From NCBI RefSeq assembly GCF_947496855.1, contig NZ_CANMED010000003.1, positions 558,001-622,000 of the forward strand: DNA of 64,000 bases, in the 5' to 3' direction. The stretch's first letter is position 1, and each line of letters begins with the position of its first letter. A program made the position numbers and the translations under genes. The stretch comes from an uncultured Aquimarina sp. (lineage in GTDB: Bacteria; Bacteroidota; Bacteroidia; Flavobacteriales; Flavobacteriaceae). Shown here one piece after another: positions 33,535 through 47,504 of the stretch. The notes beneath the pieces were generated by a model. It saw nothing but the letters and a program-made list of their open reading frames with translations, was not told the origin of the DNA and did not search any database.

Positions 33535-34332
33535 TTAATCAATTTTATCCAACAGCTCTTGAGCTTCTGTATATTTATAATTGCTTTTATCGGCCGTAAT
33601 TGTTTGTAAAACAGTTTTAAGCTTACGTTTATTCTTTTCTTTCAAAAACACCAAAGCCTTATACCAATTTGCTTTTTTAGACTGCAAAGTATTAGAATTG
33701 GTTAATAGTTCGAATTGTGCTAAGGCTTCGTCAAACTTATTGAGTTCGATATAAGCAATACCATTATAGATATAGCTTAAGGGGTCGATAGCAATTTCTT
33801 TTTCGTGATATGTTGCAAAAGACTCTGTTGCCTCTTGATACTTTTTATCTTCGAATAACAATTGTGCATTCTCTAGTAATGTATTAGCATCCTCGCCTCT
33901 AGTAACTAATGACGGTATCTCATCCATATGGACATAAGAAGCATATAACTCATCATAATTAGTATCCTTAAAAACAAATAAAGAAATTGTGATTAAAACA
34001 GCAATAGATGCAGCAATTCCAATAAACCAAAAGGTTTTACTCTGTGAACTCGATCTGTTTTCTGCGATTACTTCATTAATAGTAGATTTCAAATTAACTG
34101 CTTTATCACTTTCATAAAAAGATTTCAGTTGTAAAGCTTTATCTGTTTTTAATACTTTTTTATCACCTTGCACCCATTCTTCGTCCTCATAAATGGTTAG
34201 CATATCTTTTTGCAACTTTAGTTCTTCAGCTAGTGCTGAGTCTTCAGCAACTCTTTTTTCGAATGCTTGCTTTTCTGATGCAGACATAGTACCACTCAGA
34301 TAATCATCAATTTCTATTGGGTAGTCCTTCAT
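33535..34332 (-). CDS. Membrane protein partner of the ECF sigma factor (putative anti-sigma, TPR C-terminus)
   Basis: 265 residues. The N-terminal ~90 residues are cytosolic and resemble an anti-sigma domain (IEIDDYLSGTMSASEKQAFE, an HxxxC-less zinc-independent type). One transmembrane helix lies near 98-118 (FWFIGIAASIAVLITISLFV), and the periplasmic C-terminus has TPR-like repeats (EDANTLLENAQLLFEDKKYQ, PLSYIYNGIAYIELNKFDEA). Start overlaps the sigma gene stop by 4 bp (ATGA), implying translational coupling. It would hold the sigma factor at the membrane until a periplasmic signal releases it. The anti-sigma role is inferred from layout and topology. Confidence 0.72.
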   Translation of the reverse strand: MKDYPIEIDDYLSGTMSASEKQAFEKRVAEDSALAEELKLQKDMLTIYEDEEWVQGDKKVLKTDKALQLKSFYESDKAVNLKSTINEVIAENRSSSQSKTFWFIGIAASIAVLITISLFVFKDTNYDELYASYVHMDEIPSLVTRGEDANTLLENAQLLFEDKKYQEATESFATYHEKEIAIDPLSYIYNGIAYIELNKFDEALAQFELLTNSNTLQSKKANWYKALVFLKEKNKRKLKTVLQTITADKSNYKYTEAQELLDKID

Positions 34333-34943
34333 AATTCTTTAATTTGATTATATCTGGTATCGCTTTTAATCAATTTAGTCAATTGTGATTTACAATTAAA
34401 AATACGTTGTCTCACTACATTATCTGTGTTATATCCTAGTTTTTCCATAATATCTTTATAAGGTGTTTTCTGAAAAAACAACTGTAATAATTGCTTACAG
34501 CTATCGGACAGTTTTGTTAATTTCTCCTGAAAAAGTTCCCATTTTTCTTGTTCTAAAGTCGCCATAGTCATGTCTTCTATTTCTTTAGAGTGTTCCAAAA
34601 CCTCATCATTTGTTACTATCCTTTTTTGTTTATTTAGTTCTCTACGCCATAAATTTCTACAAACTGCATAGAAATAAGCGCTAAAAGAGCTTTCTATTAC
34701 AAAGGCTTTTACCTTATATCTGGCGATTAGTTGCATCAATGCTTTCTGAAAAACATCTTCTGCATCTGCAATATCTCCACTATTACCAAGAACAAAACTT
34801 CTTATTTTAGGAAACTCTTTTATATACAAGTCTTGCATAAGTTCTTTATCCCCTGTAACGAGTTGCTTAAGTTGATCTTTTTCAGTTATCTGCATTAAGA
34901 TATCTTTAACTAATTGATTTTTTTTACTTTTGCCTAGTAACAT
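34329..34943 (-). CDS. ECF-type RNA polymerase sigma factor
   Basis: 204 residues. Region 2 lies at about 30-100 (ELMQDLYIKEFPKIRSFVLG, DAEDVFQKALMQLI, FSAYFYAVCRNLWRRELNKQ) and region 4 at about 130-190 (LTKLSDSCKQLLQLFFQKTP, then YKDIMEKLGYNTDNVVRQRI). It is encoded divergently from the lipoprotein/TPR-CHAT genes, which share its 5' region. The first ~25 codons, together with the intergenic promoter, are duplicated at 38233-38325. The most likely regulon includes the adjacent divergent genes, but this is inferred. Confidence 0.88.
   Translation of the reverse strand: MLLGKSKKNQLVKDILMQITEKDQLKQLVTGDKELMQDLYIKEFPKIRSFVLGNSGDIADAEDVFQKALMQLIARYKVKAFVIESSFSAYFYAVCRNLWRRELNKQKRIVTNDEVLEHSKEIEDMTMATLEQEKWELFQEKLTKLSDSCKQLLQLFFQKTPYKDIMEKLGYNTDNVVRQRIFNCKSQLTKLIKSDTRYNQIKEL
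34925..34932 (+). promoter_or_regulatory. Candidate -7 box upstream of the first lipoprotein-CHAT unit
   Basis: TACTTTTG fits TAnnTTTG and lies 67 bp before the chosen lipoprotein start, inside the beginning of the divergent sigma gene. The box and its surroundings are retained at 38307-38314 upstream of the duplicated unit. No good -33 box is evident, so an alternative sigma factor could be used. Confidence 0.45.
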
Positions 34944-34998
34944 TTATTAGGTTAGGGGAACATACTAATAAATAATGAAAACAAAAAAAGATTTAAGA

Positions 34999-35481
34999 AT
35001 GAAAAAAATCACATTACTAGTAGTAACTGCAGTTTTTGCAATTGGAATACAAAGCTGCTCAACGGATGAAATTGGAATTGAAGAGGTAACATTACAGGAA
35101 TTATTATCTAAAAAACTAACATCTAACAATTCGTTAGAAGGTCCAACTTCTTATTGCAAAATTTTTGCAGTATTTCCGAGTACCACAAGCTCTAATGAGC
35201 GTGATGTAATTAGATTTCAACATATGAATAGCACAGAATCATTTGGATTTTTTACCTTTAAAGCTACTGAATGTCAATTCATAGAAATCTGGAGAGTAGA
35301 CTGTTCTAAAATTCCTAGGGAATATGGTGACGGGACTGTTGAAGGTTCTACGATCGTTTACAATACAAGAAATGGCTCTGACGTAGATACTGAAGATGGT
35401 GACGTCTCAGCTTTCGAAATATTAGATACTTATACTGATTTAGAAAGTTTAATTTCAGGTTGTATGACAATTATGCTCTAA
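34999..35481 (+). CDS. Small variable lipoprotein, first copy
   Basis: 160 residues from the ATG at 34999. An upstream ATG at 34975 is rejected because the duplicated gene at 38380 lacks it while the homology continues through it. The signal peptide MKKITLLVVTAVFAIGIQSC (lipid Cys20) is nearly identical to that of the second copy, and STDEIGIEE follows. The mature domain then diverges strongly: here SYCKIFAVFPSTTSS, TECQFIEIWRVDC, and a C-terminal LESLISGC. I see no known family. It is 31 bp upstream of the TPR-CHAT gene and surely cotranscribed. As a membrane-anchored partner or substrate of the CHAT protease it is an attractive but unproven candidate. Confidence 0.72.
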   Translation: MKKITLLVVTAVFAIGIQSCSTDEIGIEEVTLQELLSKKLTSNNSLEGPTSYCKIFAVFPSTTSSNERDVIRFQHMNSTESFGFFTFKATECQFIEIWRVDCSKIPREYGDGTVEGSTIVYNTRNGSDVDTEDGDVSAFEILDTYTDLESLISGCMTIML

Positions 35482-35512
35482 TCAATTATCCACAAAATTA
35501 GAATCTAATCAA

Positions 35513-38227
35513 TTGAAAAAATATATCCCCTTCTTATTTTATATCCTGGTGATGAATGTTCATTGTCAGGATATATCGTTTACATTAGATTCTATTCATA
35601 ACAGCCCTGGTACTGATCACGACAAGCTTGATATGTATTATAAGCTTTTGGATTCTTACAGCGAACAAAAAAATCATACGCAATTAGGGTATGACGCCCA
35701 TTTGTTGGCTAAATGGATGCTGAGAGAAAACGACAGACCATTGGCCATCAAAATAGTTAAGATGGCATATGAGGCAAGAGAAAAAGCCAATCCATATGAT
35801 CCAGAATTGTTAAAAAGAAGCTATTATAATTATGCTAATTATAATAAAAACTACGGCAATATAATTAAGTCTATTGAGTATTTCGAAAAAGTAATCGAAG
35901 TGAGTACAACCGATTACCTTAAAGGAAGAGCCAATGCACTTATAGGCAAATGTTATGAGATATTAGATGATCTTTATAAATCAATAGAATATCAATCAAA
36001 GGCTTTTGAGTATTTCAGTAAAAATAAAAAACTAAACTATACAATAAGTAATCATATAAGTATTGCCATCACATATACTAATATTAGAAATGAAATAAGT
36101 AATAAAAAAGCGATACATCATTTATTGATCGCAGAATCTTTAATTAAAAAAAGTAAAAAACCTAATCTTCTAAAACTAAGTAATGTTTATAATAACTTAG
36201 CTAATCTATATCAAAAAGGAGCGGGTACGGTTGATATAAAAAAAGGGTTTGATTATTATGATAAAGCGTTGGAAGTTCTTAAGAAAAATAATCTTTTGTC
36301 TGAATTACCCTTTATACATCATAATATCGGCATCTCTTATATAGGAGTAGATTCTATTCTTTCTAGACATCACCTTGATCAAGCATTATTATATATTCCA
36401 AAAGACGATCCCTATTTAGCAAATATCTATGCAGGATTTGGATATGATGAAAAACAAAACGGAGAATATACTGAGGCGCAAGAATATTTCCGGAAGTCTT
36501 TTTCTTTATTTTTTAATAAAGAAATCCCAAATAGTCATTGGTTACCTCAAAAAGATCAGATGAGTGTTTTAGATGACAAAGCATATTTCTTGGAACTGTT
36601 AAAAAGAAAAATGCATACTTGGATATTAATGGGTAAAAGAGACCATAATTTAGAATATTATCAACAAGCTATTCATACTGCATACACCTGTAATGATTTA
36701 ATAGATTATCTTTTAAAAGAAGATATTTCGCATGAGTCAAAACTATTCTGGAGAAGCTTAGCTTCTGAGATATACATTATAGCTTTAGATGCCTGCTACG
36801 CAAGTAATAATTTAGAGGATGCATTCTTTTTTATGGAAAAAAGCAAAGCTTTATTATTAATGCAAGATGTAAGTAAAACAAAAATTGATATTCCTGATAG
36901 TATACTAGGACGAGAATATTTTTTGAAAAATAAAATAATTAATCTTCAAAATACGCTGATTAACACAAAAGAAAGTAAAAAAGATTCGATATCCTCACTT
37001 CTATTAGACAGAAAAACAAAACTCCAAGCATACAAAGATTCTCTTGCCCCATACTATCCAGAATATTTTACATCCACAGAACTTCCCACTATTATTTCTT
37101 TAGAGGATGTTACGTTACCAAATAATGAGATTATTGTTCAATACTCTATGGCAGAACGGGTATATGGTGTAGCGCCCGAAGCTTATGGAATGTTATTATC
37201 AAAGGACAAAAAAAAGTTGTTTAAAATAGATAGCCTTAAAAAGTTTGAGAAAAACATTTACAAATTAAGACAACAATTAAATAAACCTTTTAATACTTCA
37301 AAAGAAATTGAAGAATATAAAAAACTTTCTAATACAGTATATAATTCTTTATTCCCAAGAGAGATTAGAAATGATATAAAAAATAAAAAGCTTACCATAA
37401 TAGGAGATCATATTCTTAATTATTTCCCTTTCGAAGCTCTAATAATAGATGTGGAAAAAAATCTATATTTAATAGAAGAAACAGAGATTACTTATGAATA
37501 CTCGCTTTCGTTTAAAAAACAAAACAACTCGTTTATAAGAAAACCGAGCAAAGATTTTCTTGGAGTAGCTCCAGTTGAATTTCCTGACAAACTAATTAGT
37601 TTATCTAAAAGTTTAGAAGAAATCTCTTATGCTAATAGTTATTATGATGGAGAGTTATTAAGTTTAGATAAAGCTACAAAAGAAAACTTTAAAAAAGAAA
37701 TTGATAAATATAAAATAGTACATTTAGCGACTCACGCGGATGCATCTGACAGTTTAAATCCCTGGATTGCTTTTAGAGATAAAAAATTGTATCATCTAGA
37801 GTTGAACACCTTGAAAAACAACGCCGATTTAGTGGTGCTCAGTGCCTGTAACACTTCTCTTGGTGAGGTTCGTAGAGGGGAAGGTGTGTTGAGTCTTGCT
37901 CGTGGATTCTTCAAATCCGGAGCTAAATCTGTGATTCCATCACTATGGAGTACGAATGATAAGACTACTGCAAAGATCACCTCTGATTTTTATAAAAATC
38001 TAAGTGAAGGACAAACTAAATCAGCTGCTTTACGAAACGCAAAACTTAATTACTTACGCAATAATACGGATGCAGAAGCTTCGCCTCATTATTGGGCATC
38101 TTTAGTACTGATTGGTGACAGTGGGACACTATTGCCACGGGCTAATAATCTGTTATTCTTGTGGATTGGGTTGGGTGTTATTTTGGTAATTTTACTGGGT
38201 TATTTCGTATCCAAAAAATTGAGATGA
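35513..38227 (+). CDS. Exported TPR-CHAT (caspase-like) protease, first copy
   Basis: 904 residues from a TTG start; the second copy starts with the same TTGAAAAAA context, which supports it. A signal peptide (1-19) is followed by a helical TPR array (about 60-480, e.g. YNYANYNKNYGNIIKSIEYF and YNNLANLYQKGAGTVD), a coiled linker, and a CHAT domain (~570-870). The catalytic dyad is H741 (VHLATHADASDS) and C779 (VLSACNTSLGE). GFFKSGAKSVIPSLWSTND and the ASPHYWASLVLIGD block complete the domain. A C-terminal transmembrane helix (LLFLWIGLGVILVILLGYFV) ends in SKKLR. The topology suggests a periplasmic caspase-like protease anchored in the inner membrane. CHAT proteases cleave specific protein partners; the target here is unknown. 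Confidence 0.87.
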   Translation: MKKYIPFLFYILVMNVHCQDISFTLDSIHNSPGTDHDKLDMYYKLLDSYSEQKNHTQLGYDAHLLAKWMLRENDRPLAIKIVKMAYEAREKANPYDPELLKRSYYNYANYNKNYGNIIKSIEYFEKVIEVSTTDYLKGRANALIGKCYEILDDLYKSIEYQSKAFEYFSKNKKLNYTISNHISIAITYTNIRNEISNKKAIHHLLIAESLIKKSKKPNLLKLSNVYNNLANLYQKGAGTVDIKKGFDYYDKALEVLKKNNLLSELPFIHHNIGISYIGVDSILSRHHLDQALLYIPKDDPYLANIYAGFGYDEKQNGEYTEAQEYFRKSFSLFFNKEIPNSHWLPQKDQMSVLDDKAYFLELLKRKMHTWILMGKRDHNLEYYQQAIHTAYTCNDLIDYLLKEDISHESKLFWRSLASEIYIIALDACYASNNLEDAFFFMEKSKALLLMQDVSKTKIDIPDSILGREYFLKNKIINLQNTLINTKESKKDSISSLLLDRKTKLQAYKDSLAPYYPEYFTSTELPTIISLEDVTLPNNEIIVQYSMAERVYGVAPEAYGMLLSKDKKKLFKIDSLKKFEKNIYKLRQQLNKPFNTSKEIEEYKKLSNTVYNSLFPREIRNDIKNKKLTIIGDHILNYFPFEALIIDVEKNLYLIEETEITYEYSLSFKKQNNSFIRKPSKDFLGVAPVEFPDKLISLSKSLEEISYANSYYDGELLSLDKATKENFKKEIDKYKIVHLATHADASDSLNPWIAFRDKKLYHLELNTLKNNADLVVLSACNTSLGEVRRGEGVLSLARGFFKSGAKSVIPSLWSTNDKTTAKITSDFYKNLSEGQTKSAALRNAKLNYLRNNTDAEASPHYWASLVLIGDSGTLLPRANNLLFLWIGLGVILVILLGYFVSKKLR

Positions 38228-38232
38228 AACCT

Positions 38233-38325
38233 TTACGTAAATACATATGTACTTATATCTTTTTCAGTTATTTGCATTAAGATATCTTTAACTATTTGAT
38301 TTTTTTTACTTTTGCGTGGTAACAT
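38233..38325 (-). pseudogene. Duplicated 5' stub of the ECF sigma gene
   Basis: On the minus strand the first codons of the sigma gene (34943 downwards) recur here as MLPRKSKKNQIVKDILMQIT, then EKD, after which similarity ends and the frame runs to a stop after 30 codons. The homology starts at 34875/38257 on the plus strand and continues through the intergenic promoter into the lipoprotein and CHAT genes. It shows that the duplication breakpoint lay inside the sigma gene. Confidence 0.85.
38307..38314 (+). promoter_or_regulatory. Candidate -7 box upstream of the second lipoprotein-CHAT unit
   Basis: TACTTTTG, the duplicate of 34925-34932, with the same flanks (AACATTTATTAGGTTAGG follows in both). 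It lies 66 bp before the lipoprotein ATG. Confidence 0.45.
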
Positions 38326-38379
38326 TTATTAGGTTAGGGAAACATTCTAATAAATATATAAACAAAAAAAGATTTAAGA

Positions 38380-38877
38380 ATGAAAAAAATCAAATTACTA
38401 GTAGTAGCCGCAGTTTTTACAATTGGAATACAAAGCTGCTCAACAGATGAAATTGGAATTGAAGAGGAAAATATTATTGAAGAAAACGGTCTATCTAAAA
38501 GGCAATCTATTATTATTAATAATAATGATAATAATATTCCAGACGGCCCAATTCGTAAGGTTTATCTTTATTACCCTCCTGATATGTCTTTTCAAGATAG
38601 ATTAGATTATTTTGAATATTTTAGAGAAAATGTATTATTTATAACTTTCATACAACTAAATGATGGTTGTGAAAATGTAGATTTTTTTCTTGGAATTCTT
38701 AGAGATGAAGCACCTAAGCCAGAAGTTGTTGTAGTTAGAGCGTCAAATGATGTAAACGAAGATGTACCTGATTTTACGGAAGGTTCTGATACTTTTCCTT
38801 TCGACTCTAAATCTAATCCAGAATTAATTGGCCTAGAGAATTTTTGTGCTATAATAAATCGTATCGAAGGTAATTAA
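38380..38877 (+). CDS. Small variable lipoprotein, second copy
   Basis: 165 residues. The signal peptide MKKIKLLVVAAVFTIGIQSC and the following STDEIGIEE match the first copy almost exactly. The remainder is only faintly related (KVYLYYPPDMSFQDRLDYFE; an isolated Cys in NDGCENVDFF; GLENFCAIIN at the end, aligning with LESLISGC). An Asn-rich tether (SIIINNNDNNIPDG) follows the N-terminus. It is 12 bp upstream of its TPR-CHAT gene. Fast divergence of the mature part behind a constant leader suggests each lipoprotein is matched to its own partner. Confidence 0.72.
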   Translation: MKKIKLLVVAAVFTIGIQSCSTDEIGIEEENIIEENGLSKRQSIIINNNDNNIPDGPIRKVYLYYPPDMSFQDRLDYFEYFRENVLFITFIQLNDGCENVDFFLGILRDEAPKPEVVVVRASNDVNEDVPDFTEGSDTFPFDSKSNPELIGLENFCAIINRIEGN

Positions 38878-38889
38878 CAAACTTTTATA

Positions 38890-41625
38890 TTGAAAAAATC
38901 AATATCCCGTTTTATACTAACCCTAATATATTCCTTGACTATAATTTCTTATAGTCAAGGAATATCTACGCGATTAGATTCTATTCATAAGCTTCCAGAA
39001 ACAGATTTTGCAAAATTAAATATATACCAAAACCTTTTGGATACATATGTCCAAGAAGAAAACTATACTCAATTAGGATATGATGCCCACAAACTAGCAA
39101 AATGGCTACACGCCGAAAAAAAATGGGACAAAGCTATTGAGGTCATAAAAATTGCTTATGAAGCTAGGGAAATTGCTTGCCCGTTCGATGTTAGATCACT
39201 AAAAGTAAGTTATTATGGTTACGCTATTTACAATAAAAAAAAAGGGAACTTAGACATTGCTACTACTTATCTAAAAAAAATATTAGCACTTGGAGGGACC
39301 AACTTTTTAAAAGGAAGAACTTGCTCGATTATTGGGAGTATTTATGATGAAATTGGAGATTATCATAAAGCAGTTACTTATTATGCAAAAGCATTTGAAT
39401 TTTATAATTCAGAAAAACAATTAAATCGAATAATTAGTATTCATAATAACCTCGCCGTTTCATACCGAAACATTAGAAGTGCTGCGAGTACTAAAAAAGC
39501 TATTTATCATCTAACCATTGCCGATTCCTTAACTATCATAAGTAAAAATTCAAGTCAAAAGTCCTTATTTCATATAAATAATAATTTTGGAGCTCTATAC
39601 AGTTCCGGGTCTGAAATTAAGGATTCTGAAAAATCTATTTTTTATCTAAAAAAAGCACTGGAAATAGCAAAAGCTAATCAGTTCATGGAGCAATTAGGTC
39701 AAGTATGTATCAATTTAGGAATCACGCATATTGAAGTCAATCATTCTAAATCAGAAGAGTATTTTCATAATGCATTATCCTATCTTCCAAAAGATTCTAA
39801 CTTATTACCCGATGTATATATGGGATTAGGCCTTAAAAATATACAAGAACGACAATATCTAGATGCCCAACAAAATTTTGCCATCGCTTTTTCATATCAT
39901 TTTGGTATTGCTACACCAGATATTTATTGGTTGCCAAAAGAAAATCGAATGAAAAATATTGTAGATAAGGCTTATTTTCTTGAATTATTAAAAAGAAAAT
40001 TAAAAGCCTGGATACTACTTGCTAAAAAAGAAAACAACCCATCCTTCTTTATGGAGGCTATAAAAACAGCATATACTTGTGATGTCTTGATAAATATATT
40101 GCTTAAAGAAGATATTTCAAACAGTGCAAAATTGTTGTGGAGAAATCTAGCCTCAGAAATCTACATTATGGCGCTGGAAGCCTGTTATGAAATGGACAAA
40201 ATAGAAGATGCTTTTTACTTTATGGAAAAAAGCAAGGCCTTGTTATTGATGCAAGAAGTAGAAAGAAAAAAGAATACGGTCCCAAAAGAAATACTAGAAC
40301 AAGAAAATGCTGTAAAAAGAAAGATTATAGAGCTTCAAAAAAAACTAATCACTACTAATGATGATAGTAAGAAAGACTCTATATCTTCGATTGTATTTAA
40401 TGAAAAACGACACTTAGAAGATTTTACAGATTCTCTCTCTATAAAATACCCAAAACACTTTACTTCTTCTACATTACCAGCGATTACAACATTAAAGGAT
40501 TTAAAATTATCTGATGATGAAATCATACTAGAATATGTGATGGAAAAAAATGTTGCTGGTGCTGATTTTGAAGCTTATGGATTATTGGTGTCCAATACCT
40601 CCAAGAAAATGTTTAAGATTGATAATCTTAAGCAGTTTGAGAAGAACATTTACACATTAAGAGAACAATTAAATCAACCTTTTACAACTCAAGAAGAAAT
40701 ACAGGAGTATAACAAACTTTCATATAGTATTTATCAATCCTTATTCCCTAAAGAAATACAATCTTTAGTTAAAAACAAAAAAATAACTATTTCGGCTGAT
40801 TATATATTGAACTATATACCGTTTGAGGCTTTAATAACGGATATAGAAAAAAACTCTTATCTGATAGAAAGTAATGAAATTAACTATGGATATTCGCTTT
40901 CATTTATGAAAGAAAATGCTTCTTTATCCAGAGAAACCTCTAAAGATTTCTTAGGAATAGCACCAGTTCAATTTGAGGATCAACAAACAACATTATCCAA
41001 AAGCTTAGAAGAAATCTCTGAAGCTAATTCGTATTATTCAGGTTCTCTATTGACTAAAAAGGCAGCTACAAAGAAAAACTTCACAAAAGAAGTTAACAAG
41101 TATAAAATTGTTCATTTGGCAACCCATGCAAATGCTTCGGACAGTTTAAATCCCTGGATTGCATTCAGGAATGATAAACTATACCATCAAGAACTTAATA
41201 CACTGCAAAACAATGCTGATTTAGTAGTACTCAGTGCTTGCAATACATCTCTGGGAGAGGTTCGTAGTGGTGAAGGTATAATGAGTCTTGCCCGTGGATT
41301 TTTTAAATCCGGAGCTAAATCTGTGATTCCATCCTTGTGGAGTACGAATGATAAGACTACTGCAACGATCACTTCTGATTTTTATAAAAATCTTAGTGAG
41401 GGACAAACTAAATCAGCTGCTTTACGAAACGCAAAACTTAATTACTTACGCAATAATACCGATGCAGAAGCATCTCCTCATTATTGGGCATCTTTGGTAC
41501 TGATTGGTGACAGTGGGACACTATTGCCAGCCACTAACTATTGGATGTTTTTATGGATTGGATTGGGTTTAATTCTGATTTTAATTATTCCATATGGACT
41601 TTTCTTGAGAAAGAAAAAGCAATGA
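38890..41625 (+). CDS. Exported TPR-CHAT (caspase-like) protease, second copy
   Basis: 911 residues from a TTG start (TTGAAAAAATC). Layout matches the first copy: signal peptide (ending IISYSQ), TPR region (~60-480), linker, CHAT domain with H746 (VHLATHANASDS) and C784 (VLSACNTSLGE), and a C-terminal transmembrane helix (WMFLWIGLGLILILIIPYGL) before RKKKQ. The 3' ~300 bp are almost identical in DNA to the first copy (37838-38140), while the N-terminal half is clearly diverged, a mosaic pattern suggesting gene conversion. The gene is followed after 236 bp by the lanthipeptide-like precursor. Confidence 0.87.
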   Translation: MKKSISRFILTLIYSLTIISYSQGISTRLDSIHKLPETDFAKLNIYQNLLDTYVQEENYTQLGYDAHKLAKWLHAEKKWDKAIEVIKIAYEAREIACPFDVRSLKVSYYGYAIYNKKKGNLDIATTYLKKILALGGTNFLKGRTCSIIGSIYDEIGDYHKAVTYYAKAFEFYNSEKQLNRIISIHNNLAVSYRNIRSAASTKKAIYHLTIADSLTIISKNSSQKSLFHINNNFGALYSSGSEIKDSEKSIFYLKKALEIAKANQFMEQLGQVCINLGITHIEVNHSKSEEYFHNALSYLPKDSNLLPDVYMGLGLKNIQERQYLDAQQNFAIAFSYHFGIATPDIYWLPKENRMKNIVDKAYFLELLKRKLKAWILLAKKENNPSFFMEAIKTAYTCDVLINILLKEDISNSAKLLWRNLASEIYIMALEACYEMDKIEDAFYFMEKSKALLLMQEVERKKNTVPKEILEQENAVKRKIIELQKKLITTNDDSKKDSISSIVFNEKRHLEDFTDSLSIKYPKHFTSSTLPAITTLKDLKLSDDEIILEYVMEKNVAGADFEAYGLLVSNTSKKMFKIDNLKQFEKNIYTLREQLNQPFTTQEEIQEYNKLSYSIYQSLFPKEIQSLVKNKKITISADYILNYIPFEALITDIEKNSYLIESNEINYGYSLSFMKENASLSRETSKDFLGIAPVQFEDQQTTLSKSLEEISEANSYYSGSLLTKKAATKKNFTKEVNKYKIVHLATHANASDSLNPWIAFRNDKLYHQELNTLQNNADLVVLSACNTSLGEVRSGEGIMSLARGFFKSGAKSVIPSLWSTNDKTTATITSDFYKNLSEGQTKSAALRNAKLNYLRNNTDAEASPHYWASLVLIGDSGTLLPATNYWMFLWIGLGLILILIIPYGLFLRKKKQ

Positions 41626-41762
41626 TCTACTACTAAAAAACACATTACACTAATTGCCTCTTATTACAAGTAAAGCAATTCAAATGTAATACGTTATCTA
41701 TAAACTTAACTAGGTAAAATAAGAACGTATAGTATAAGCATCTTCTCCTTCTTAACAAAAAA

Positions 41763-41834
41763 TTAAGAAACAATATCTATTCTAATGACATGAACAATTA
41801 CGAGACATAAACTCTGAGTGTCTATAAATGTTCA
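41763..41834 (+). promoter_or_regulatory. Upstream control region of the lanthipeptide-like gene
   Basis: This region aligns with 44888-44963 upstream of the peptide gene at 44997. The core GAGTGTCTATAAATGTTCA (41816-41834) matches 18 of 19 bases of the other copy. Further upstream, AGAAACA (41766) and AATGACA (41784) sit 18 bp apart, exactly as AGTAACA pairs do in the other copy. This suggests a shared regulator binding direct repeats. Confidence 0.6.
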
Positions 41835-41861
41835 GAATCTTATTATTCTAAAATTAAAATC

Positions 41862-42110
41862 ATGAAGAAAAAAAAGTTAAACGGTTTATCCTTGAAAAAG
41901 AATGTAGTTTCGAGACTTGGTAGTTCTGCGATAAAAGGTGGTGGTAATGATACTTCACTAATAGGCCCTGTATGCACTGTAGGAACCCGTTATTGTCCTA
42001 CTGATTCTGCTACTCCTGATTGTTTTTCTAAAAATTGTGAAGTTGTATCAAAAAATATCTGCGGAGAAACAGATATGAACTGTGACTCTATACAAGTACA
42101 CTGTTTATAG
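41862..42110 (+). CDS. Class I lanthipeptide-like precursor
   Basis: 82 residues. The leader MKKKKLNGLSLKKNVVSRLG, ending SSAIKGGG, is the Bacteroidota class I lanthipeptide type (pinensin-like L-x-L-K-K-x-x-V-x-x-L pattern, double-glycine end near residue 28). The core (about residues 29-82) has seven Cys and many Ser/Thr (PVCTVGTRYCPTDSATPDC, then FSKNCEVVSKNICGETD, NCDS and HCL), enough for several thioether rings. A LanC gene follows 77 bp downstream, after a 14-bp hairpin. No LanB dehydratase, transporter or leader peptidase is in the window. The product is likely exported and cyclised; bioactivity is unknown. Confidence 0.78.
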   Translation: MKKKKLNGLSLKKNVVSRLGSSAIKGGGNDTSLIGPVCTVGTRYCPTDSATPDCFSKNCEVVSKNICGETDMNCDSIQVHCL

Positions 42111-42132
42111 ACATCAAGTATTAACCCTAAAA

Positions 42133-42166
42133 TTAGGAGAGAAAAGAATAGACTTTTCTCTCCTAA
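42133..42166 (+). terminator. Intercistronic stem-loop between precursor and LanC genes
   Basis: A 14-bp perfect stem (TTAGGAGAGAAAAG / CTTTTCTCTCCTAA) with a 6-nt loop lies 22 bp after the precursor stop and 21 bp before the LanC ATG. There is no T-run after it. This is the usual place for a partial terminator or RNA-stabilising hairpin that gives more precursor than enzyme mRNA. Confidence 0.75.
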
Positions 42167-42187
42167 TAAATAAACCTAACAGAAGCT

Positions 42188-43393
42188 ATGAATATTAATA
42201 AGCTTCATCAAAAACTGAAAGAAATCAATACTATTGTTGATCAACAACAATATCAAGAAGAGAATATTGGTGTTTTATCTGGTTTATCAGGCATTACCTT
42301 ATTCCAATTTTATTATGCAAAGTTTTTAGATAAAGACATTACTGACACTGGTTACAAGTTAATAGAAAACTGTATCCAAAAAATTAATGAAGGTTATAAC
42401 TATGGTACGTATTGTTCGGGAATTTCAGGAATGGGATGGGTTCTCAATCATTTAGAACAAAATGATTTTATTGAAATTGATATTGACAATTTATGTTTAG
42501 ATTTAGATAATTATCTCTATCAATTAATGATTGACGATCTACAAAAGGGAAATTACGACTTTTTACACGGTGGTTTAGGGTATGCATTTTATTTTCTTAG
42601 CAGATATGAAAACACAAAATCTGATAGCGCGAGAAAAAACTATCAGACGTACCTACTTTCTTTCATACATCTAATACGTAATAAATCAGAAGATTACAAA
42701 AATACACTAAGATGGATTTCGGAAATAGGTTTAGAACACAAAGAAAAAGTATATAACCTAGGTCTTTCTCACGGGATGTCCAGTATTGTTGGTATTCTAA
42801 CCAAACTCTCCCGACATGAGGATTTCGAGAAGACCTCAAAAAAAATGCTTCAAGGAACGATATCTTACATCTTACAATATGAAAACCCAAACAAAGAGGA
42901 CGCTACACTTTTTCCAAATATCATATACGAAAATGGTAGCTATGAATATAAAAGTAGACTAGCTTGGTGTTATGGAGACTTAGGCATTGGAATTAGACTT
43001 TGGCATGCCTCCAAAGTTTTACAGGATGAGTCACTACAAAACACTGCTATTACTATCATGGAACACGCTGCCCAAAGAACCAATAATAAACAAAACATGG
43101 TGAAGGATGCTGGAATATGTCACGGTTCTTTTGGTAATGCGCAGATCTTTCTAAGAATGTTTAAAGAAACAAACAATGACATTTTTAAAAACGCTTGCGA
43201 ATTCTGGATAGAGGATGGATTAAATAAAGCAACTCATATTGATGGATATGCTGGATACAAACAGTGGAAAGGTCCAGATGAATGGAAAAAGGAAATTTCT
43301 CTATTAGAAGGGATTGCAGGTATCGGTCTTACTTTAATAGATTATCTAGCCGATTTCGAAACCAGTTGGGATGAGTGTTTAATGATAAGTTGA
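42188..43393 (+). CDS. LanC-family lanthionine cyclase
   Basis: 401 residues, the normal length of stand-alone LanC. The alpha-toroid GG repeats are seen (GVLSGLSGITLFQFYY, GTYCSGISGMGWVLNHL, FLHGGLGYAFYFLSRY, LSHGMSSIVGIL). The zinc site is complete: C261 in LAWCYGDLGIG and C311-H312 in GICHGSFGN. LanC activates Cys thiols through zinc for addition to dehydrated Ser/Thr. It directly follows the lanthipeptide-like precursor, so ring formation on that peptide is the natural role. A LanB dehydratase would have to be encoded elsewhere. Confidence 0.87.
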   Translation: MNINKLHQKLKEINTIVDQQQYQEENIGVLSGLSGITLFQFYYAKFLDKDITDTGYKLIENCIQKINEGYNYGTYCSGISGMGWVLNHLEQNDFIEIDIDNLCLDLDNYLYQLMIDDLQKGNYDFLHGGLGYAFYFLSRYENTKSDSARKNYQTYLLSFIHLIRNKSEDYKNTLRWISEIGLEHKEKVYNLGLSHGMSSIVGILTKLSRHEDFEKTSKKMLQGTISYILQYENPNKEDATLFPNIIYENGSYEYKSRLAWCYGDLGIGIRLWHASKVLQDESLQNTAITIMEHAAQRTNNKQNMVKDAGICHGSFGNAQIFLRMFKETNNDIFKNACEFWIEDGLNKATHIDGYAGYKQWKGPDEWKKEISLLEGIAGIGLTLIDYLADFETSWDECLMIS

Positions 43394-43530
43394 TATATAC
43401 TAAGTAGTATAATTTTTGAATATTCATTGTATCTAATCTTCGCATTTTCAGGATAATTCAATGATAAAAACATTCGTTTTTTAACAAAAAAGCTATATTT
43501 GCTTCTTCACAAACTCAGATCGTCACACAC

Positions 43531-44736
43531 ATGAAATCTTTACTTTGTTTTGTAGTAGGCTTATTTTTTATTTCTACTAGTAGTGCACAGAGCATCTATG
43601 AAGCCGGTTATTTTATTGATAACGATGGAAACCGAAAAGAATGCCTGATCAAAAAACTATCTTGGAAAAGTAATCCAACAGAGTTCGAATGGAAGAGAAC
43701 CATCTCCTCTAGTTCCAAAACCGAAACAATTGAAAACATTAAAGAGTTTGCAGTAGGCGAAGATTATAGATTTAAAAGATACATCTTGCAATTTGATTTA
43801 AATGGAGACACGGTAGGTAAATCGACTAAATCAAAAGATCCAAATCTTAAATACAAAAAAATATTTCTTAGAACGATCCTAAAAAGTAAAACAACATTAT
43901 ATCAATACTCAGAAAATAATGTTCATCGTCTTTTCTACACTGATCCAAACACCATATACCCTGAATTATTACTTTATAAAGTATTCTACACTCCCGATGA
44001 AACAAGAAAACCAGGAAAAAAAATCATCCCACAAGAAAATAACACCTATCAGCAGCAGCTAAAAGAAAAGGTAAATTGCAAAAATCAGGATGTATCCAAA
44101 TTAACGTATACTCAAGGTGACTTAAAAAGATATTTTAAAAAGTATAATGAGTGTAAAGGAAATAAGATCGAATATATCATTCGCAAAAAAATCAATCAAA
44201 CCAGAATTGGCATTGTAGCAGCTGTTGATTTAAGTAGTTTTACTCATAACTCAATAGCAGGAAGTGCCGGAAATGTAAGTTATGAAGATGTTTTTGTTCC
44301 TAGATATGGAATATTTGTAGAAACGTTTATACCGTTTTCTAAAGTAGATTTAAGTTTCTTTTTAGAATCTACCTACAAAGCTTTTACGATGGATGGTCGT
44401 GATCTTGCCATTGCTAACAGTGAATTCGAACTAGATTATAAAAGTATCAATGTAGCTGTAGGTCCCCGATTTCACATCTACTTAAGTTCTAAATTCGAAT
44501 TATTCCTGGAAGGTGGATTAACAGTAGATTTTAATATTGGCACTGAGTCGAATGTTTTTGATGACAACGAAATAGAAAATACCACAACAGATTATTTTTA
44601 TGGTGGAGGTTTTGGTTCTGGTCGTTTTAAAGTTGGTTTTAGACAGTACACCAGCAAAAATATATCTAAAAGCACACTGATACCAGACTCAGAGTTGACT
44701 ACCTCTAGCTTATATCTCTCTGTGAATATATTCTAA
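43531..44736 (+). CDS. Outer-membrane beta-barrel protein of unknown function
   Basis: 401 residues. A signal peptide (1-19, STSSAQ) is followed by a soluble N-terminal domain (GYFIDNDGNRKECLIKKLSW; residues ~20-215) that recurs in Bacteroidota proteins of unknown role, including YQYSENNVHRLFYTD. A C-terminal barrel follows (about 225-401), with alternating strands (RIGIVAAVDLSSFTHNS, AVGPRFHIYLSSKFELFLEG) and a final strand SLYLSVNIF ending in Phe as outer-membrane proteins do. It lies between two peptide genes, but 130 bp on either side and its own terminator suggest it is monocistronic. A link to peptide export or immunity is possible but unsupported. Confidence 0.72.
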   Translation: MKSLLCFVVGLFFISTSSAQSIYEAGYFIDNDGNRKECLIKKLSWKSNPTEFEWKRTISSSSKTETIENIKEFAVGEDYRFKRYILQFDLNGDTVGKSTKSKDPNLKYKKIFLRTILKSKTTLYQYSENNVHRLFYTDPNTIYPELLLYKVFYTPDETRKPGKKIIPQENNTYQQQLKEKVNCKNQDVSKLTYTQGDLKRYFKKYNECKGNKIEYIIRKKINQTRIGIVAAVDLSSFTHNSIAGSAGNVSYEDVFVPRYGIFVETFIPFSKVDLSFFLESTYKAFTMDGRDLAIANSEFELDYKSINVAVGPRFHIYLSSKFELFLEGGLTVDFNIGTESNVFDDNEIENTTTDYFYGGGFGSGRFKVGFRQYTSKNISKSTLIPDSELTTSSLYLSVNIF

Positions 44737-44765
44737 TCGGAAAACAATCATATAATTTAAAACAA

Positions 44766-44791
44766 AAGGCTTTGAAATGTTTCAAAGCCTT
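44766..44791 (+). terminator. Terminator after the beta-barrel gene
   Basis: A 12-bp stem AAGGCTTTGAAA / TTTCAAAGCCTT with a 2-nt nominal loop, then TCTTTGTTTG. It separates the barrel gene from the next peptide gene. Confidence 0.8.
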
Positions 44792-44887
44792 CTTTGTTTG
44801 TTCTAAAGAAATGGTAAATTTCTAATAAAAAAACCTGAGCAATAAAGTCAAAGGAAAAAGAGCTAAAACTCTTTTTTTTTTAACACA

Positions 44888-44963
44888 ACATTAAGTAACA
44901 ATTCTTCTCGTAGTAACATTAACTACTATAAAGACATATATCTTGAGTGTCTCTAAATGTTCA
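44888..44963 (+). promoter_or_regulatory. Upstream control region of the second double-glycine peptide
   Basis: Homologous to 41763-41834. The core GAGTGTCTCTAAATGTTCA is at 44945-44963. Direct repeats AGTAACA (44894) and AGTAACA (44912) are 18 bp apart. No exact TAnnTTTG box is present, so a regulated or alternative-sigma promoter is likely. Confidence 0.6.
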
Positions 44964-44996
44964 AGATGGTACAAATCATTATTAAAAATTTATAGT

Positions 44997-45224
44997 ATGT
45001 TAAAAAACATTTTAAATTTAAATGGAGTTCAAAAATTAGAAAAAGAAGAACAAAAATCAGTTCAAGGAGGAAATCCTATCCTAATAGAAGCTCCAAGTTG
45101 TAACTATTATTGTAGCGGCACAACCGCGAGATTAAGTAATGGAAATTATCTAAACTGCCCTGCAATTATTCATAATGCACCACAATGTAATGGAGATGAC
45201 GATGGTATTGAGATTTGGGCTTAA
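44997..45224 (+). CDS. Small double-glycine leader peptide, second copy (bacteriocin/RiPP-like)
   Basis: 75 residues from the ATG at 44997; the frame stays open upstream to 44943, but that part is promoter DNA. The leader starts MLKNILNLNGVQKLE and ends KSVQGG at residue 26, followed by a 49-residue core beginning NPILIEAPSC with four Cys (SCNYYC, NCP, QCN) and an acidic C-terminus (GDDDGIEIWA). The leader is closely related to the peptide at 13914, with the first 24 bases identical, but the cores are unrelated. Export through a C39 peptidase transporter is expected from the GG site; none is in the window. Thioether cyclisation by the nearby LanC is possible but unproven. Confidence 0.72.
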   Translation: MLKNILNLNGVQKLEKEEQKSVQGGNPILIEAPSCNYYCSGTTARLSNGNYLNCPAIIHNAPQCNGDDDGIEIWA

Positions 45225-45246
45225 TTAGCAATAAGTGAAATTTCAT

Positions 45247-45280
45247 AAAAAGGTGTAGAAGCTAGCTTCTACACCTTTTT
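45247..45280. terminator. Bidirectional terminator between peptide gene and recQ
   Basis: A perfect palindrome of 34 bp with arms AAAAAGGTGTAGAAGC and GCTTCTACACCTTTTT around TA. It serves both convergent genes. Confidence 0.9.
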
Positions 45281-45296
45281 ATATTTTTATATATCA

Positions 45297-47504
45297 CTAG
45301 TTAGCTACATCACTAATAAACTTGATTCGATATAGTCTTAGTTCTTCATCATCATAGTCACCATCAAACTCTTCAATAGCAGTATCTATTTTATCGTTTT
45401 CGGCTTCTATAAAATATTCATGGATTTCCTCTTGTTGGTCTTCATCAAGTATTTCATCAATCCAGTACGTAATATTAAGCTTAGTTCCACTATATACGAT
45501 AGCCTCCATCTCCTTGATAAACTCATTCATATTCATACCCTTAGCCGCAGCGATATCATCTAGCGGTAATTTTCTATCTACGTTCTGGATGATATATAAT
45601 TTAAGACCACTATTAGCTCCAGTACTTTTTACAACAAAATCATCCGGACGCATGATATCATTTTCTTCTACATATTTAGAAATAAGTGCTACAAATTCTT
45701 TTCCATATTTTTTAGCTTTACCTTCTCCTACTCCATGTACATTCCCTAATTCTTCAATATTTACCGGATATTTCAGTGCCATATCCTCTAAAGACGGATC
45801 TTGAAATACCACAAAAGGTGGAACTCCTAATTTCTTTGCTACACTTTTCCTTAAATCTTTTAGCATCCCCACCAATCGATTATCTGTTCCTACTCCTTTA
45901 CCTGCAGATTTGGCAGCAGTAATAATAGAATCATCTTTAGTTTCATTAAAGACATGATCTTCTGTCATCATAAAACCAACTGGGGATTCAATAAACTCTC
46001 TTCCTTTAGGAGTTATTCTGATAACACCATATGTTTCTATATCTTTTTTTAAATATCCAGCGACTAACACTTGTCTGATTAATGCCATCCAATATTTATC
46101 TTCTCTAGATTTACCAGTCCCAAAAAATGGTTGTTCGTGGGTCTTATGAGAAATAATCAGTGCATTACTTTTACCAATTAATGTACTTACTAAGTCTTTA
46201 GATTTATAAATTTCTCCGGTTTTACTCACAACCTTTAACAGCAATTGAACCTCATCTTTTGCTTCGTGCTTTTTCTTTGGATTACGCACATTATCGTCCA
46301 TATCCGCGCCATCTCCTGTAACGTCATCAAACTCTTCCCCAAAATAATGCAATATAAATTTACGTCTAGAGATTGAGGTTTCTGCAAAAGCCACTACTTC
46401 TTGTAAAAGTGCATGACCTATTTCCTGTTCTGCCACAGGTTTACCACTCATAAACTTTTCCAGTTTTTCGATATCCTTGTATGCATAATATGCTAAACAA
46501 TGCCCTTCTCCTCCATCTCTACCAGCACGACCTGTTTCCTGATAGTAACTCTCTATACTTTTGGGTATATCATGATGGATTACAAAACGTACATCCGGTT
46601 TATCAATACCCATTCCGAAAGCTATGGTAGCAACTACTACATCAGCATCTTCCATAAGAAACATATCCTGATGTTTTGCACGTGTTTTAGCGTCCAAACC
46701 AGCATGATATGGGACTGCTTTCACTCCGTTTACTTCTAACGTCTGAGCAAGTTCCTCTACCCTTTTTCTACTTAGACAATATACGATACCACTTTTACCA
46801 CTATTTTGTTTTACAAAACGAATAATATCAGCATCAACATTCTTCGTCTTAGGGCGTATTTCGTAAAATAAATTAGGACGATTAAACGATGCTTTAAAAG
46901 TTGTAGCATTACTCATTGCTAAATTCTTAAGAATATCTTCTTGCACTTTTGGAGTAGCTGTTGCGGTAAGTCCAATAATTGGAATATTCTCTCCTATTCT
47001 CTTTATAATATTCTTCAGATTCCTATATTCTGGTCTAAAATCGTGACCCCATTCACTAATACAATGGGCTTCATCAACAGCCAAAAAAGAAATCTTTTGT
47101 TCTTTTAAAAAATCTACGTATTCTTCCTTTGTTAAAGACTCCGGAGCTACATAAAGCAATTTAGTTACCCCATTGACAATATCTTCTTTTACTCTCTTAA
47201 CCTCAGATTTATTAAGGGAAGAATTCAGTACATGAGCTATTCCTTCTTCTGAAGAAATACTTCGAATAGCATCTACTTGATTTTTCATTAGTGCGATCAA
47301 AGGAGAAACTACAATAGCCGTTCCTTCACACATTAAAGCAGGTAGCTGGTAGCAAAGGGATTTTCCACCACCTGTAGGCATAATAACAAAAGTATTTTGA
47401 TTACTTAAAATACTTTCTATTACCTTTTCCTGCAATCCTCTAAATTGACTAAAACCAAAGTACTTTTTTAAAGCTCCTTGTAAGTCGGTTTCGTTCAAAC
47501 TCAT
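45297..47504 (-). CDS. recQ: ATP-dependent DNA helicase RecQ
   Basis: 735 residues. Superfamily 2 helicase core: Walker A in MPTGGGKSLCYQLPA, DEAH in AVDEAHCISEWGHDFRPEYR, and motif VI in QETGRAGRDG. Instead of the four-Cys zinc cluster, the segment after the core lacks an obvious Cys tetrad, as in many Bacteroidota RecQ. Winged-helix RQC (TYGVIRITPKGREF) and HRDC domains (LRKSVAKKLGVPPFVVFQD) follow. A C-terminal extension of ~120 residues is acidic (EEFDGDYDDEEL). It unwinds DNA 3'-5' in recombination and fork repair. It is monocistronic and divergent from the kdsD-like gene. Confidence 0.93.
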   Translation of the reverse strand: MSLNETDLQGALKKYFGFSQFRGLQEKVIESILSNQNTFVIMPTGGGKSLCYQLPALMCEGTAIVVSPLIALMKNQVDAIRSISSEEGIAHVLNSSLNKSEVKRVKEDIVNGVTKLLYVAPESLTKEEYVDFLKEQKISFLAVDEAHCISEWGHDFRPEYRNLKNIIKRIGENIPIIGLTATATPKVQEDILKNLAMSNATTFKASFNRPNLFYEIRPKTKNVDADIIRFVKQNSGKSGIVYCLSRKRVEELAQTLEVNGVKAVPYHAGLDAKTRAKHQDMFLMEDADVVVATIAFGMGIDKPDVRFVIHHDIPKSIESYYQETGRAGRDGGEGHCLAYYAYKDIEKLEKFMSGKPVAEQEIGHALLQEVVAFAETSISRRKFILHYFGEEFDDVTGDGADMDDNVRNPKKKHEAKDEVQLLLKVVSKTGEIYKSKDLVSTLIGKSNALIISHKTHEQPFFGTGKSREDKYWMALIRQVLVAGYLKKDIETYGVIRITPKGREFIESPVGFMMTEDHVFNETKDDSIITAAKSAGKGVGTDNRLVGMLKDLRKSVAKKLGVPPFVVFQDPSLEDMALKYPVNIEELGNVHGVGEGKAKKYGKEFVALISKYVEENDIMRPDDFVVKSTGANSGLKLYIIQNVDRKLPLDDIAAAKGMNMNEFIKEMEAIVYSGTKLNITYWIDEILDEDQQEEIHEYFIEAENDKIDTAIEEFDGDYDDEELRLYRIKFISDVAN

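Follow-up and report, generated by a model that had tools for sequence, protein, structure and literature searches.

What does a caspase-like protease cut when it is encoded beside an extracytoplasmic function (ECF) sigma factor and the putative membrane-bound inhibitor of that factor? The question is raised by an island at positions 33,535 to 45,280 of a 64,000-nucleotide stretch of DNA from an uncultured Aquimarina sp. (contig NZ_CANMED010000003.1, positions 558,001 to 622,000; the whole stretch is termed the window). The source genome comprises 5.83 Mb, and its closest named relatives are Aquimarina. The first half of the island combines an ECF sigma factor and an anti-sigma factor with two proteases that consist of tetratricopeptide repeats (TPR) and a CHAT domain; the second half harbours peptide genes and a LanC-like cyclase. 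We propose, with a probability of roughly 0.8, that TPR-CHAT is a site-1 protease dedicated to the anti-sigma factor, which it would cut after Arg145, acting as a sigma-factor switch. The cleavage and its exact place we infer from sequence comparisons, according to which protease/anti-sigma pairs with a matching pocket and predicted cut site recur in many Bacteroidota. The first half contains the following features (window coordinates; TM, transmembrane; aa, amino acids).

33535..34332, minus strand: anti-sigma factor, 265 aa, called from its place, N-terminal helices, TM helix, weak TPR matches below the Pfam cut-off and a paralogue alignment; a helical N-terminal domain, probably of the sigma-binding type, is followed by a TM helix (about residues 104-120) and an outside TPR domain from residue 151.
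33892..33948, minus strand: juxtamembrane motif LYASYVHMDEIPSLVTRGE, anti-sigma residues 129-147, identified by subtype-wise conservation and covariation with the CHAT pocket.
33898-33900, minus strand: codon of Arg145, after which the putative cut would fall (between SLVTR and GED), placed by covariation and by the coil in the model.
34329..34943, minus strand: ECF sigma factor, 204 aa as called (TIGR02937, 65.7 bits, cut-off 42.9); the true start is probably near 34895, since relatives mostly have 185-195 aa.
34937..34961, plus strand: promoter-like site GTAACA-N14-GGAAC, facing lipoprotein 1 and CHAT1, found by motif enrichment in loci of layout type A (see below).
34975..35481, plus strand: lipoprotein 1 (start probably 34999), lipobox IQSC.
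35513..38227, plus strand: CHAT1, 904 aa (PF12770, 178.4 bits), with a signal-like N-terminus, TPR, the CHAT domain and a C-terminal TM-like helix (879-903); dyad His741/Cys779, pocket residues E703, S777 and D816.
38319..38343, plus strand: second promoter-like site, GTAACA-N14-GAAAC, ahead of lipoprotein 2 and CHAT2, found by motif match.
38380..38877, plus strand: lipoprotein 2, lipobox IQSC by eye; its upstream and signal regions closely resemble those of lipoprotein 1.
38890..41625, plus strand: CHAT2, 911 aa (PF12770, 176.5 bits), dyad His746/Cys784.

The sigma and anti-sigma genes on the minus strand diverge from the series lipoprotein 1, CHAT1, lipoprotein 2 and CHAT2. A preliminary description of this DNA had listed the gene content of the island and the duplication within it, and both are confirmed: the ECF sigma factor, the two CHAT proteins and LanC are clear by their profile scores, and the second lipoprotein-CHAT pair is, as judged from its sequence, a tandem duplicate. 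CHAT1 and CHAT2 are 58% identical, each is preceded by a lipoprotein gene, both keep the His/Cys dyad and identical pocket residues, and the 5' end of the sigma gene is, by eye, repeated in the DNA ahead of lipoprotein 2. The small lipoproteins tested matched no Pfam or NCBIfam family. No anti-sigma family model of Pfam or NCBIfam matched the sigma-adjacent protein either, which is identified as an anti-sigma factor from its place, its N-terminal helices and its predicted TM helix.

The first half of the island is one copy of a recurrent module. Among the nine CHAT genes of the source genome, eight are found near a pair of an ECF sigma factor and a TM-TPR anti-sigma factor; outside the window this holds for six of seven within about 5 kb, and the gene without a nearby pair is located at C6:271795 (C, G and L are our handles for contigs, genomes and loci). 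In a sample of 80 genomes of the family, one per genus, 38 encode CHAT proteins (65 matches in total). Only the 54 anti-sigma matches of at least 61 bits entered this count, those below 61 bits being, among the matches listed, mostly long TPR proteins. A CHAT gene is found within 10 kb of 45 of the 54 strong anti-sigma matches (38 of 47 with the source genome excluded), and 47 of the 65 CHAT genes lie within 10 kb of a strong anti-sigma match (39 of 56). An exact-pattern genome scan with CHAT2 alone yielded no relative; the scan with the CHAT alignment A4 led to 77 named loci, which were drawn by likeness to layout type A rather than as a random sample, and 73 of which contain the anti-sigma gene. 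At class level, 395 genomes were searched with 26 anti-sigma factors as queries, and 80 places were fetched, mostly from the top of the ranking and leaving out the source genome and some other matches; these gave 50 new pairs, 11 within the family and 39 outside. Beside the anti-sigma factors left unpaired, no other protease was obvious from lengths and sequence starts, with no scan by profile. Several genomes of this search contain large CHAT expansions (G385, 31 matches; G445, 30; G080, 22; E of at most 1e-15), where some CHAT genes lie on short contigs and several sigma/anti-sigma pairs are also present, and at one locus (L115) two CHAT genes occur with no sigma/anti-sigma pair called nearby.

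Sorted by hand, the loci fall into five layouts. Type A, that of the window, is divergent with a lipoprotein or subtilase gene between the two arms; type B is likewise divergent, with a gene for a roughly 650-aa protein and further genes in between; type C is arranged tail to tail; type D forms a single operon in the order sigma, anti-sigma, CHAT; and type E is directly divergent. Because CHAT elsewhere stands in the sigma-anti-sigma operon or tail to tail with it, the constant partners across the layouts are the sigma factor, the anti-sigma factor and CHAT. The gene between sigma and CHAT encodes a subtilase lipoprotein (PF00082) in all six long versions scanned, including the type A examples L014:4330-5679, L016:5417-6730 and L107:8517-9836, and at the loci with an LDAC pocket it is long, as judged by length, in 7/7 resolved cases. 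By eye, the short lipoproteins have an E-x-W pattern in common with the N-terminal part of the long versions, and this region is possibly an inhibitor-like domain.

If the anti-sigma factor is the substrate, protease and target have to be on the same side of the membrane, and the predicted topologies of both place them there. The AlphaFold2 (AF2) model of CHAT1 (pLDDT 88.8, pTM 0.84) comprises a TPR array, a caspase-like domain and the C-terminal helix 879-903. Among the paired CHAT proteins of at least 700 aa (three shorter ones were excluded), a C-terminal TM stretch is present in 168/168 (internal control segments, 0) and an N-terminal hydrophobic stretch in 159 (controls, 10), the last eight residues include at least two Lys or Arg in 158 of the 168, and a TM stretch is found in 167 of the 168 anti-sigma factors paired with them. 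The C-terminal TM and N-terminal hydrophobic stretches predict an exported CHAT protein that is tethered to the inner membrane and faces outward, on the same side as the anti-sigma linker. In the AF2 model of the anti-sigma factor (pLDDT 83), helices 104-120 and 151-264 flank this linker, which forms a short helix at 126-133 and is otherwise mostly coil, including the putative site; Foldseek returned TPR-type proteins as top matches of the anti-sigma model, none with E below 0.001. The preliminary description had already placed exported, inner-membrane-anchored CHAT proteins next to an envelope-facing sigma/anti-sigma pair, and the predicted TM and signal-like stretches of the former, as well as the one TM helix and outside TPR of the latter, agree with this picture. 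His737 had been considered as catalytic His and was ruled out by a wider alignment, which points to His741.

The proposed switch would operate as follows. At rest, the anti-sigma factor would hold the ECF sigma factor at the inner membrane, while the exported TPR-CHAT, held by its C-terminal TM helix, would stay inactive until an envelope signal arrives, which is perhaps read by the TPR part of CHAT or by the co-encoded lipoprotein. Activated CHAT would then cut the anti-sigma factor after Arg145, about 25 residues outside the membrane, and remove the outside TPR domain. A site-2 protease would presumably remove the stub, as in other anti-sigma cascades, and the freed sigma factor would transcribe the lipoprotein-CHAT operon from GTAACA-N14-GNAAC, which would result in feedback. 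Each module would have its own pairing of enzyme and site: an Arg site is matched by E703, S777 and D816, a Gln or Lys site mostly has D777 and E816 as partners, and a Met or Leu site is paired with a pocket devoid of E703.

Such a pairing can be read from the covariation of the two proteins. In layout types A, B and C the linker ends in Arg (or Lys/Gln), mostly followed by Gly or Ser; in type D it ends in PDPGLPTTM, followed by Ser or Gly. Pooled over all types, the juxtamembrane segment did not by conservation alone stand out clearly from the rest of the anti-sigma factor. Mutual information with average-product correction (APC) was calculated for 121 pairs of proteins and 216,756 column pairs, of which 892 involve a synthetic duplicate of column 145. 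Anti-sigma residue 145 covaries most strongly with E703 (APC.449, rank 1) and S777 (.426, rank 2), and D816 follows at rank 4 (.377); rank 3 is the unrelated column pair P140 and L866 (.387). All 102 Arg pairs have E703 and D816, all six Gln pairs have K703, D777 and E816, and all nine Met pairs have Leu, Ile or Val at 703 together with T777 and E816; the four Lys pairs are variable at the pocket.

The 50 new pairs extended the set to 170, after L212 had been dropped for want of a call at the residue ahead of the cut (P1). Here, E703 is present in 135/135 Arg pairs and 2/35 non-Arg pairs, and E703, D816 and S777 are the top three of 877 CHAT columns in separating the two groups. In this set, Arg was assigned to the 33 new pairs with an E/S/D pocket and 16 others were called by eye; because of these hand calls, the test for Arg was repeated with rule-based and with automatic calls. 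By rule, the linker contains an Arg with a small or acidic residue after it in 33/33 of the new E/S/D-pocket pairs, and none of the 17 new pairs with other pockets has, by eye, such an Arg at the site. With the automatic call, E703 ranks first of 825 CHAT columns in the 50 new pairs alone (table of Arg by E703, 33/1/1/15; Fisher p 1e-10, kinship ignored). One pair (L059 and L072) joins genes from two contigs of one genome by inference.

The three covarying residues match, by sequence and predicted secondary structure, three places that form the S1 pocket in proteases of clan CD. The determinants of clan CD S1 pockets are given as alpha1/L1, L4 and L5, with Arg87, Gln184 and Arg233 in caspase-7 and Asp365, Asp462 and Glu500 in MALT1 (PMC4357240), and the anchors of separase and gingipain are placed at the start of helix alpha1, with helix alpha4 as a further site in separase (PMC4626109). 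In CHAT1, E703 lies within the helix 700-710, S777 precedes Cys779 by two residues, and D816 opens the helix 816-831 past the invariant Trp812.

Covariation as such indicates contact or joint selection, not catalysis, and CHAT might bind the juxtamembrane segment without cutting it, its pocket sensing or shielding residue 145 while another protease cuts. As a precedent, the type III-E TPR-CHAT is also reported to regulate Cas7-11 nuclease activity. We consider binding without cutting very unlikely: His741 and Cys779 do not vary across 28 aligned CHAT rows that span the Arg, Gln, Met and Leu classes, and the motif has, in most rows, a large residue with a small one (G/S/A/N/D) after it.

A second line of evidence for the proposed proteolysis comes from type D modules that have lost their protease. 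Within 397 genomes of the family, 51 type D anti-sigma factors occur in 50 genomes and 47 type D CHAT proteins in 45 genomes; fragments escape this CHAT search (E 1e-120), and 11 fetched loci were therefore checked for them. The site Met is kept in 45/45 type D anti-sigma factors with CHAT, which is encoded alongside in 42 cases, elsewhere in the genome in two and at a contig end in one (G015, where the first 516 residues are present before CHAT runs off the contig). This count includes L300 (VGLPLKM-G), which was missed by the automatic motif rule and scored as kept by eye. Six genomes lack a full type D CHAT; there, the intact motif is found in 0/6 and the Met in 1/6 (45/45 versus 1/6, Fisher p 2.6e-6, kinship ignored). 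Identity of the motif to the consensus is 0.11-0.78 in the six CHAT-less anti-sigma factors versus a mean of 0.92 (lowest 0.56) in those with CHAT, and identity of the TPR domain is 0.68-0.85 versus 0.78 (lowest 0.61). As far as the sequences tell, decay after CHAT loss is local to the site and spares the rest of the anti-sigma factor. In G768, TTM has changed to TTI; a 140-residue remnant of the C-terminal part of type D CHAT still follows directly after the anti-sigma gene (L274, 1276-1686), and CHAT was therefore probably lost recently. The tree calls for three separate losses, two of them relative to a same-genus sister that keeps CHAT and motif (G741/G557, G596/G768), and over random pairings the Met was lost in 2.8 of the three contrasts on average and the reverse never occurred. 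In G027 and G676 the type D CHAT gene is distant from the sigma/anti-sigma pair, and the site is still kept.

Several observations weigh against dedicated proteolysis of the anti-sigma factor. Thirty of the 80 class-level places are without a pair; two of these have CHAT with no anti-sigma open reading frame (ORF) called, and the genomes of the pairless places contain CHAT somewhere in 17 of 19 cases. The 50 new pairs rank T823, which is no known S1 position, second and ahead of S777 and D816. Individual pairs also deviate: L019 has Lys with an E/S/D pocket (four intervening genes make this pairing doubtful), L096 has Lys with an E/S/E pocket, L212 has E703 without Arg and is probably mispaired, and in L192 an Arg-Asn directly follows the Met site. 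Furthermore, the CHAT-less G549 still has the site Met, in an altered motif, and in G044 the motif is kept next to a CHAT gene broken by stops; this may reflect a loss that happened very recently or count as a counterexample.

The covariation argument suffers most from the small number of independent contrasts. The CHAT tree of the 121 pairs requires at minimum five changes at residue 145, six at 703 and three each at 777 and 816, and it offers two contrasts on supported branches. The tree of the 170 pairs requires eight changes for non-Arg, seven for non-E703, nine for non-S777 and five for non-D816, and it offers three supported independent contrasts, in which the pocket shifts in the same way or does not differ, and never in the opposite way. 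With so few contrasts a sign test cannot reach 0.05, and the same holds for the three supported contrasts of the loss tree. The few independent changes would also fit an explanation in which residue 145 and the CHAT pocket match through joint inheritance in a few clades, with no functional cause. Clade history alone leaves unexplained why the best columns fall on the predicted S1 anchors, that E703 again comes first in new pairs mostly from outside the family, and the decay of the site in the three separate losses. Joint inheritance is thus highly improbable in our view.

A promoter-like motif may link the sigma factor to the CHAT operon. GGTAACA faces the lipoprotein-CHAT operon in 41/75 type A loci and the sigma gene in 1/75 (0 and 1 in genic controls; on average 1.2 and at most 5 in shuffles), and in 45 aligned GTAACA sites another block with AAC is often found some 14 bases further on. 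Throughout the window, the double motif has three occurrences, ahead of lipoprotein 1 (34937), ahead of lipoprotein 2 (38319) and, on the minus strand, within the sigma gene, and none precedes the peptides or LanC; a stricter pattern gave eight matches genome-wide versus three for the control. GTAACA-N14-GNAAC is a putative promoter of this ECF sigma factor. The orientation of the motif, and the subtilase lipoprotein encoded between sigma and CHAT at some loci, would also suit a CHAT protein that is an effector under sigma control, with neighbouring lipoproteins, subtilase lipoproteins or secreted peptides as substrates and with co-regulation as its only tie to the anti-sigma factor. This is very unlikely, given that sigma, anti-sigma and CHAT stay together in the layouts that place CHAT in the operon or tail to tail, and that CHAT loss is followed by decay of the anti-sigma site, with the remainder of the protein spared.

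The second half of the island and its flanks contain the following features.

41862..42110, plus strand: lanthipeptide-like precursor (NF038153, 16.4 bits, under the cut-off of 22).
42188..43393, plus strand: LanC-like cyclase (PF05147, 168.6 bits).
43531-44736: secreted-looking protein, 401 aa, between LanC and the second peptide; no Pfam match.
44943..45224, plus strand: double-glycine (GG) leader peptide (start probably 44997; NF047798, 13.9 bits, under the cut-off of 23.5).
32122-33054: flanking cyclophilin/FKBP-like gene, named by sequence with no profile scan.
45297-47504: flanking RecQ-like gene, named likewise.

The preliminary description had suggested that the proteases process or respond to the adjacent peptides and had tentatively linked the two halves. 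Its naming of the two peptides stands as a weaker call, as both scores remain below cut-off. The homology that it noted in the DNA upstream of the two peptide genes is confirmed: GAGTGTCTNTAAATGTTCA has exact matches only at these two places in the genome, and seven matches with up to two mismatches (reversed control, 0). One near match (C1:173-191) precedes a further GG peptide, another (C2:115713) lies directly after the CHAT gene of locus L013 and ahead of a lipoprotein gene, and two (C6:319837 and C2:786327) look like chance. At L013 (C2 of the source genome, 4178-10638), which is another CHAT module, a short GG-leader peptide with a GAGTGTCT-type upstream element (C2:108905) adjoins the anti-sigma gene.

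At 11 Aquimarina loci, chosen for holding CHAT, the anti-sigma gene is present in 11/11 and a precursor-like or GG peptide gene in 9/11, which would favour a role for the peptides; LanC is found in 1/11 (L086, cut by the locus end). Of 37 genomes of the genus, 26, including the source genome, encode a LanC homologue, and no LanB gene stands beside the precursor and LanC of the window, as would be expected of a class I lanthipeptide cluster. The sole LanB match of the genome (Lant_dehydr_N, C5:342180-344144) adjoins the other LanC, on a different contig. GG peptides are not enriched at CHAT modules: in a rough count by rule-based calls, in which two-module loci are counted twice, their density is 0.041 per kb inside and 0.042 outside. 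No promoter-like motif is common to the CHAT half and the peptides or LanC, and it is the anti-sigma factor with which the CHAT pocket covaries. Proteases that serve the adjacent peptides, with LanC in the same system, are therefore the least probable of the readings considered here. Independent occurrence of the halves in most relatives without shared regulation, which the preliminary description had named as refuting the link, is largely borne out by the 11 loci, the motif and the density count. The island consists of two halves with no visible link; we judge the lanthipeptide precursor, LanC and the GG peptide to stand outside the CHAT system, and the lanthipeptide genes look like an unrelated neighbour of the module. 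RecQ was not seen at three of the 11 loci (L079, L086 and L089), and the 401-aa protein recurs between CHAT and RecQ without LanC in three Aquimarina relatives (83-91% identity).

The proposed switch resembles known systems in several respects. A PDB search with the whole CHAT alignment had mostly TPR proteins on top, and the CHAT domain alone was used instead. The best structural match of CHAT1 is the TPR-CHAT protein Csx29 of Craspase (8eey_B; Z 32.0, root mean square deviation (rmsd) 6.9 over 619 residues), and CHAT1 has the TPR-CHAT fold and His/Cys dyad that characterize Craspase/type III-E CASP; separases also rank high in the list, after Craspase, and no kinship with them is claimed. 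No ORF of the size of Cas7-11 occurs within 30.5-48.5 kb of the window, the 18 kb around the module, where CHAT2 (911 aa) is the longest. A PADLOC scan of seven window proteins gave no match; no search for CRISPR arrays was made. In the Craspase system, Csx29 cuts Csx30, an inhibitor of an ECF-like sigma factor, between residues 427 and 429 (PMC10028731). Thus, the combination of a TPR-CHAT protease, a sigma inhibitor and an ECF sigma factor, present in the window with cleavage as a prediction, has a precedent under RNA control. Csx29 is activated by RNA in complex with Cas7-11, whereas predictions make the window CHAT an exported protein with a membrane anchor, and the window inhibitor is a TM anti-sigma factor with TPR, unlike Csx30.

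A further similar protein is DdvA of Myxococcus. Residues 367-991 of DdvA (PDB 8rot, 8rw5) match residues 93-868 of CHAT1 (Z 24.5, rmsd 11.8, 576 residues), with His and Cys aligned at matching places. Judging by its PDB titles, DdvA was deposited as a transmembrane anti-sigma factor; it unites anti-sigma factor and TPR-CHAT in one chain, whereas the window has two separate genes. The proposed cut outside the membrane, which would free an ECF sigma factor, also resembles DegS-RseA and other site-1 cascades (for DegS as site-1 protease, see PMC10028731). As in RseA-like regulated proteolysis, the ECF sigma factor is encoded with an anti-sigma factor of one predicted TM helix, and an exported, membrane-anchored site-1 protease is present by prediction. 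The literature consulted mentions DegS and signal peptidase as site-1 proteases and no caspase-like one matched to its anti-sigma factor. For the sigma group ECF54, PMC8999054 proposes proteolytic regulation, with carboxypeptidase, subtilase and CHAT genes nearby; these sigma factors are described there as lacking an anti-sigma factor, whereas the window sigma factor has one. LanC and the leader-like precursor recall a class I lanthipeptide cluster, with the difference that LanB is not alongside. Among the best-ranked open-access titles and abstract openings, none describes an exported CHAT as an anti-sigma protease, which is no proof of novelty.

The module may exemplify a broad class in Bacteroidota, in which each of many parallel ECF sigma pathways of a cell has its own caspase-like site-1 protease and is insulated from the others by pockets that have co-evolved with the residue at the cut site (Arg, Lys/Gln or Met/Leu). 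Craspase and the fused DdvA may be related to this class by descent. This generalization we hold to be an even bet. No substrate was assigned to exported CHAT proteases in the literature searched, and, if dedicated proteolysis of the anti-sigma factor holds true, these bacterial enzymes would gain a named substrate and a predicted cut site, and a caspase-like enzyme would join the site-1 proteases of anti-sigma factors. The module suggests a CRISPR-independent counterpart to the protease-sigma wiring of Craspase, and it would provide natural pairs of proteases and sites of several P1 classes, perhaps usable as orthogonal signalling parts.

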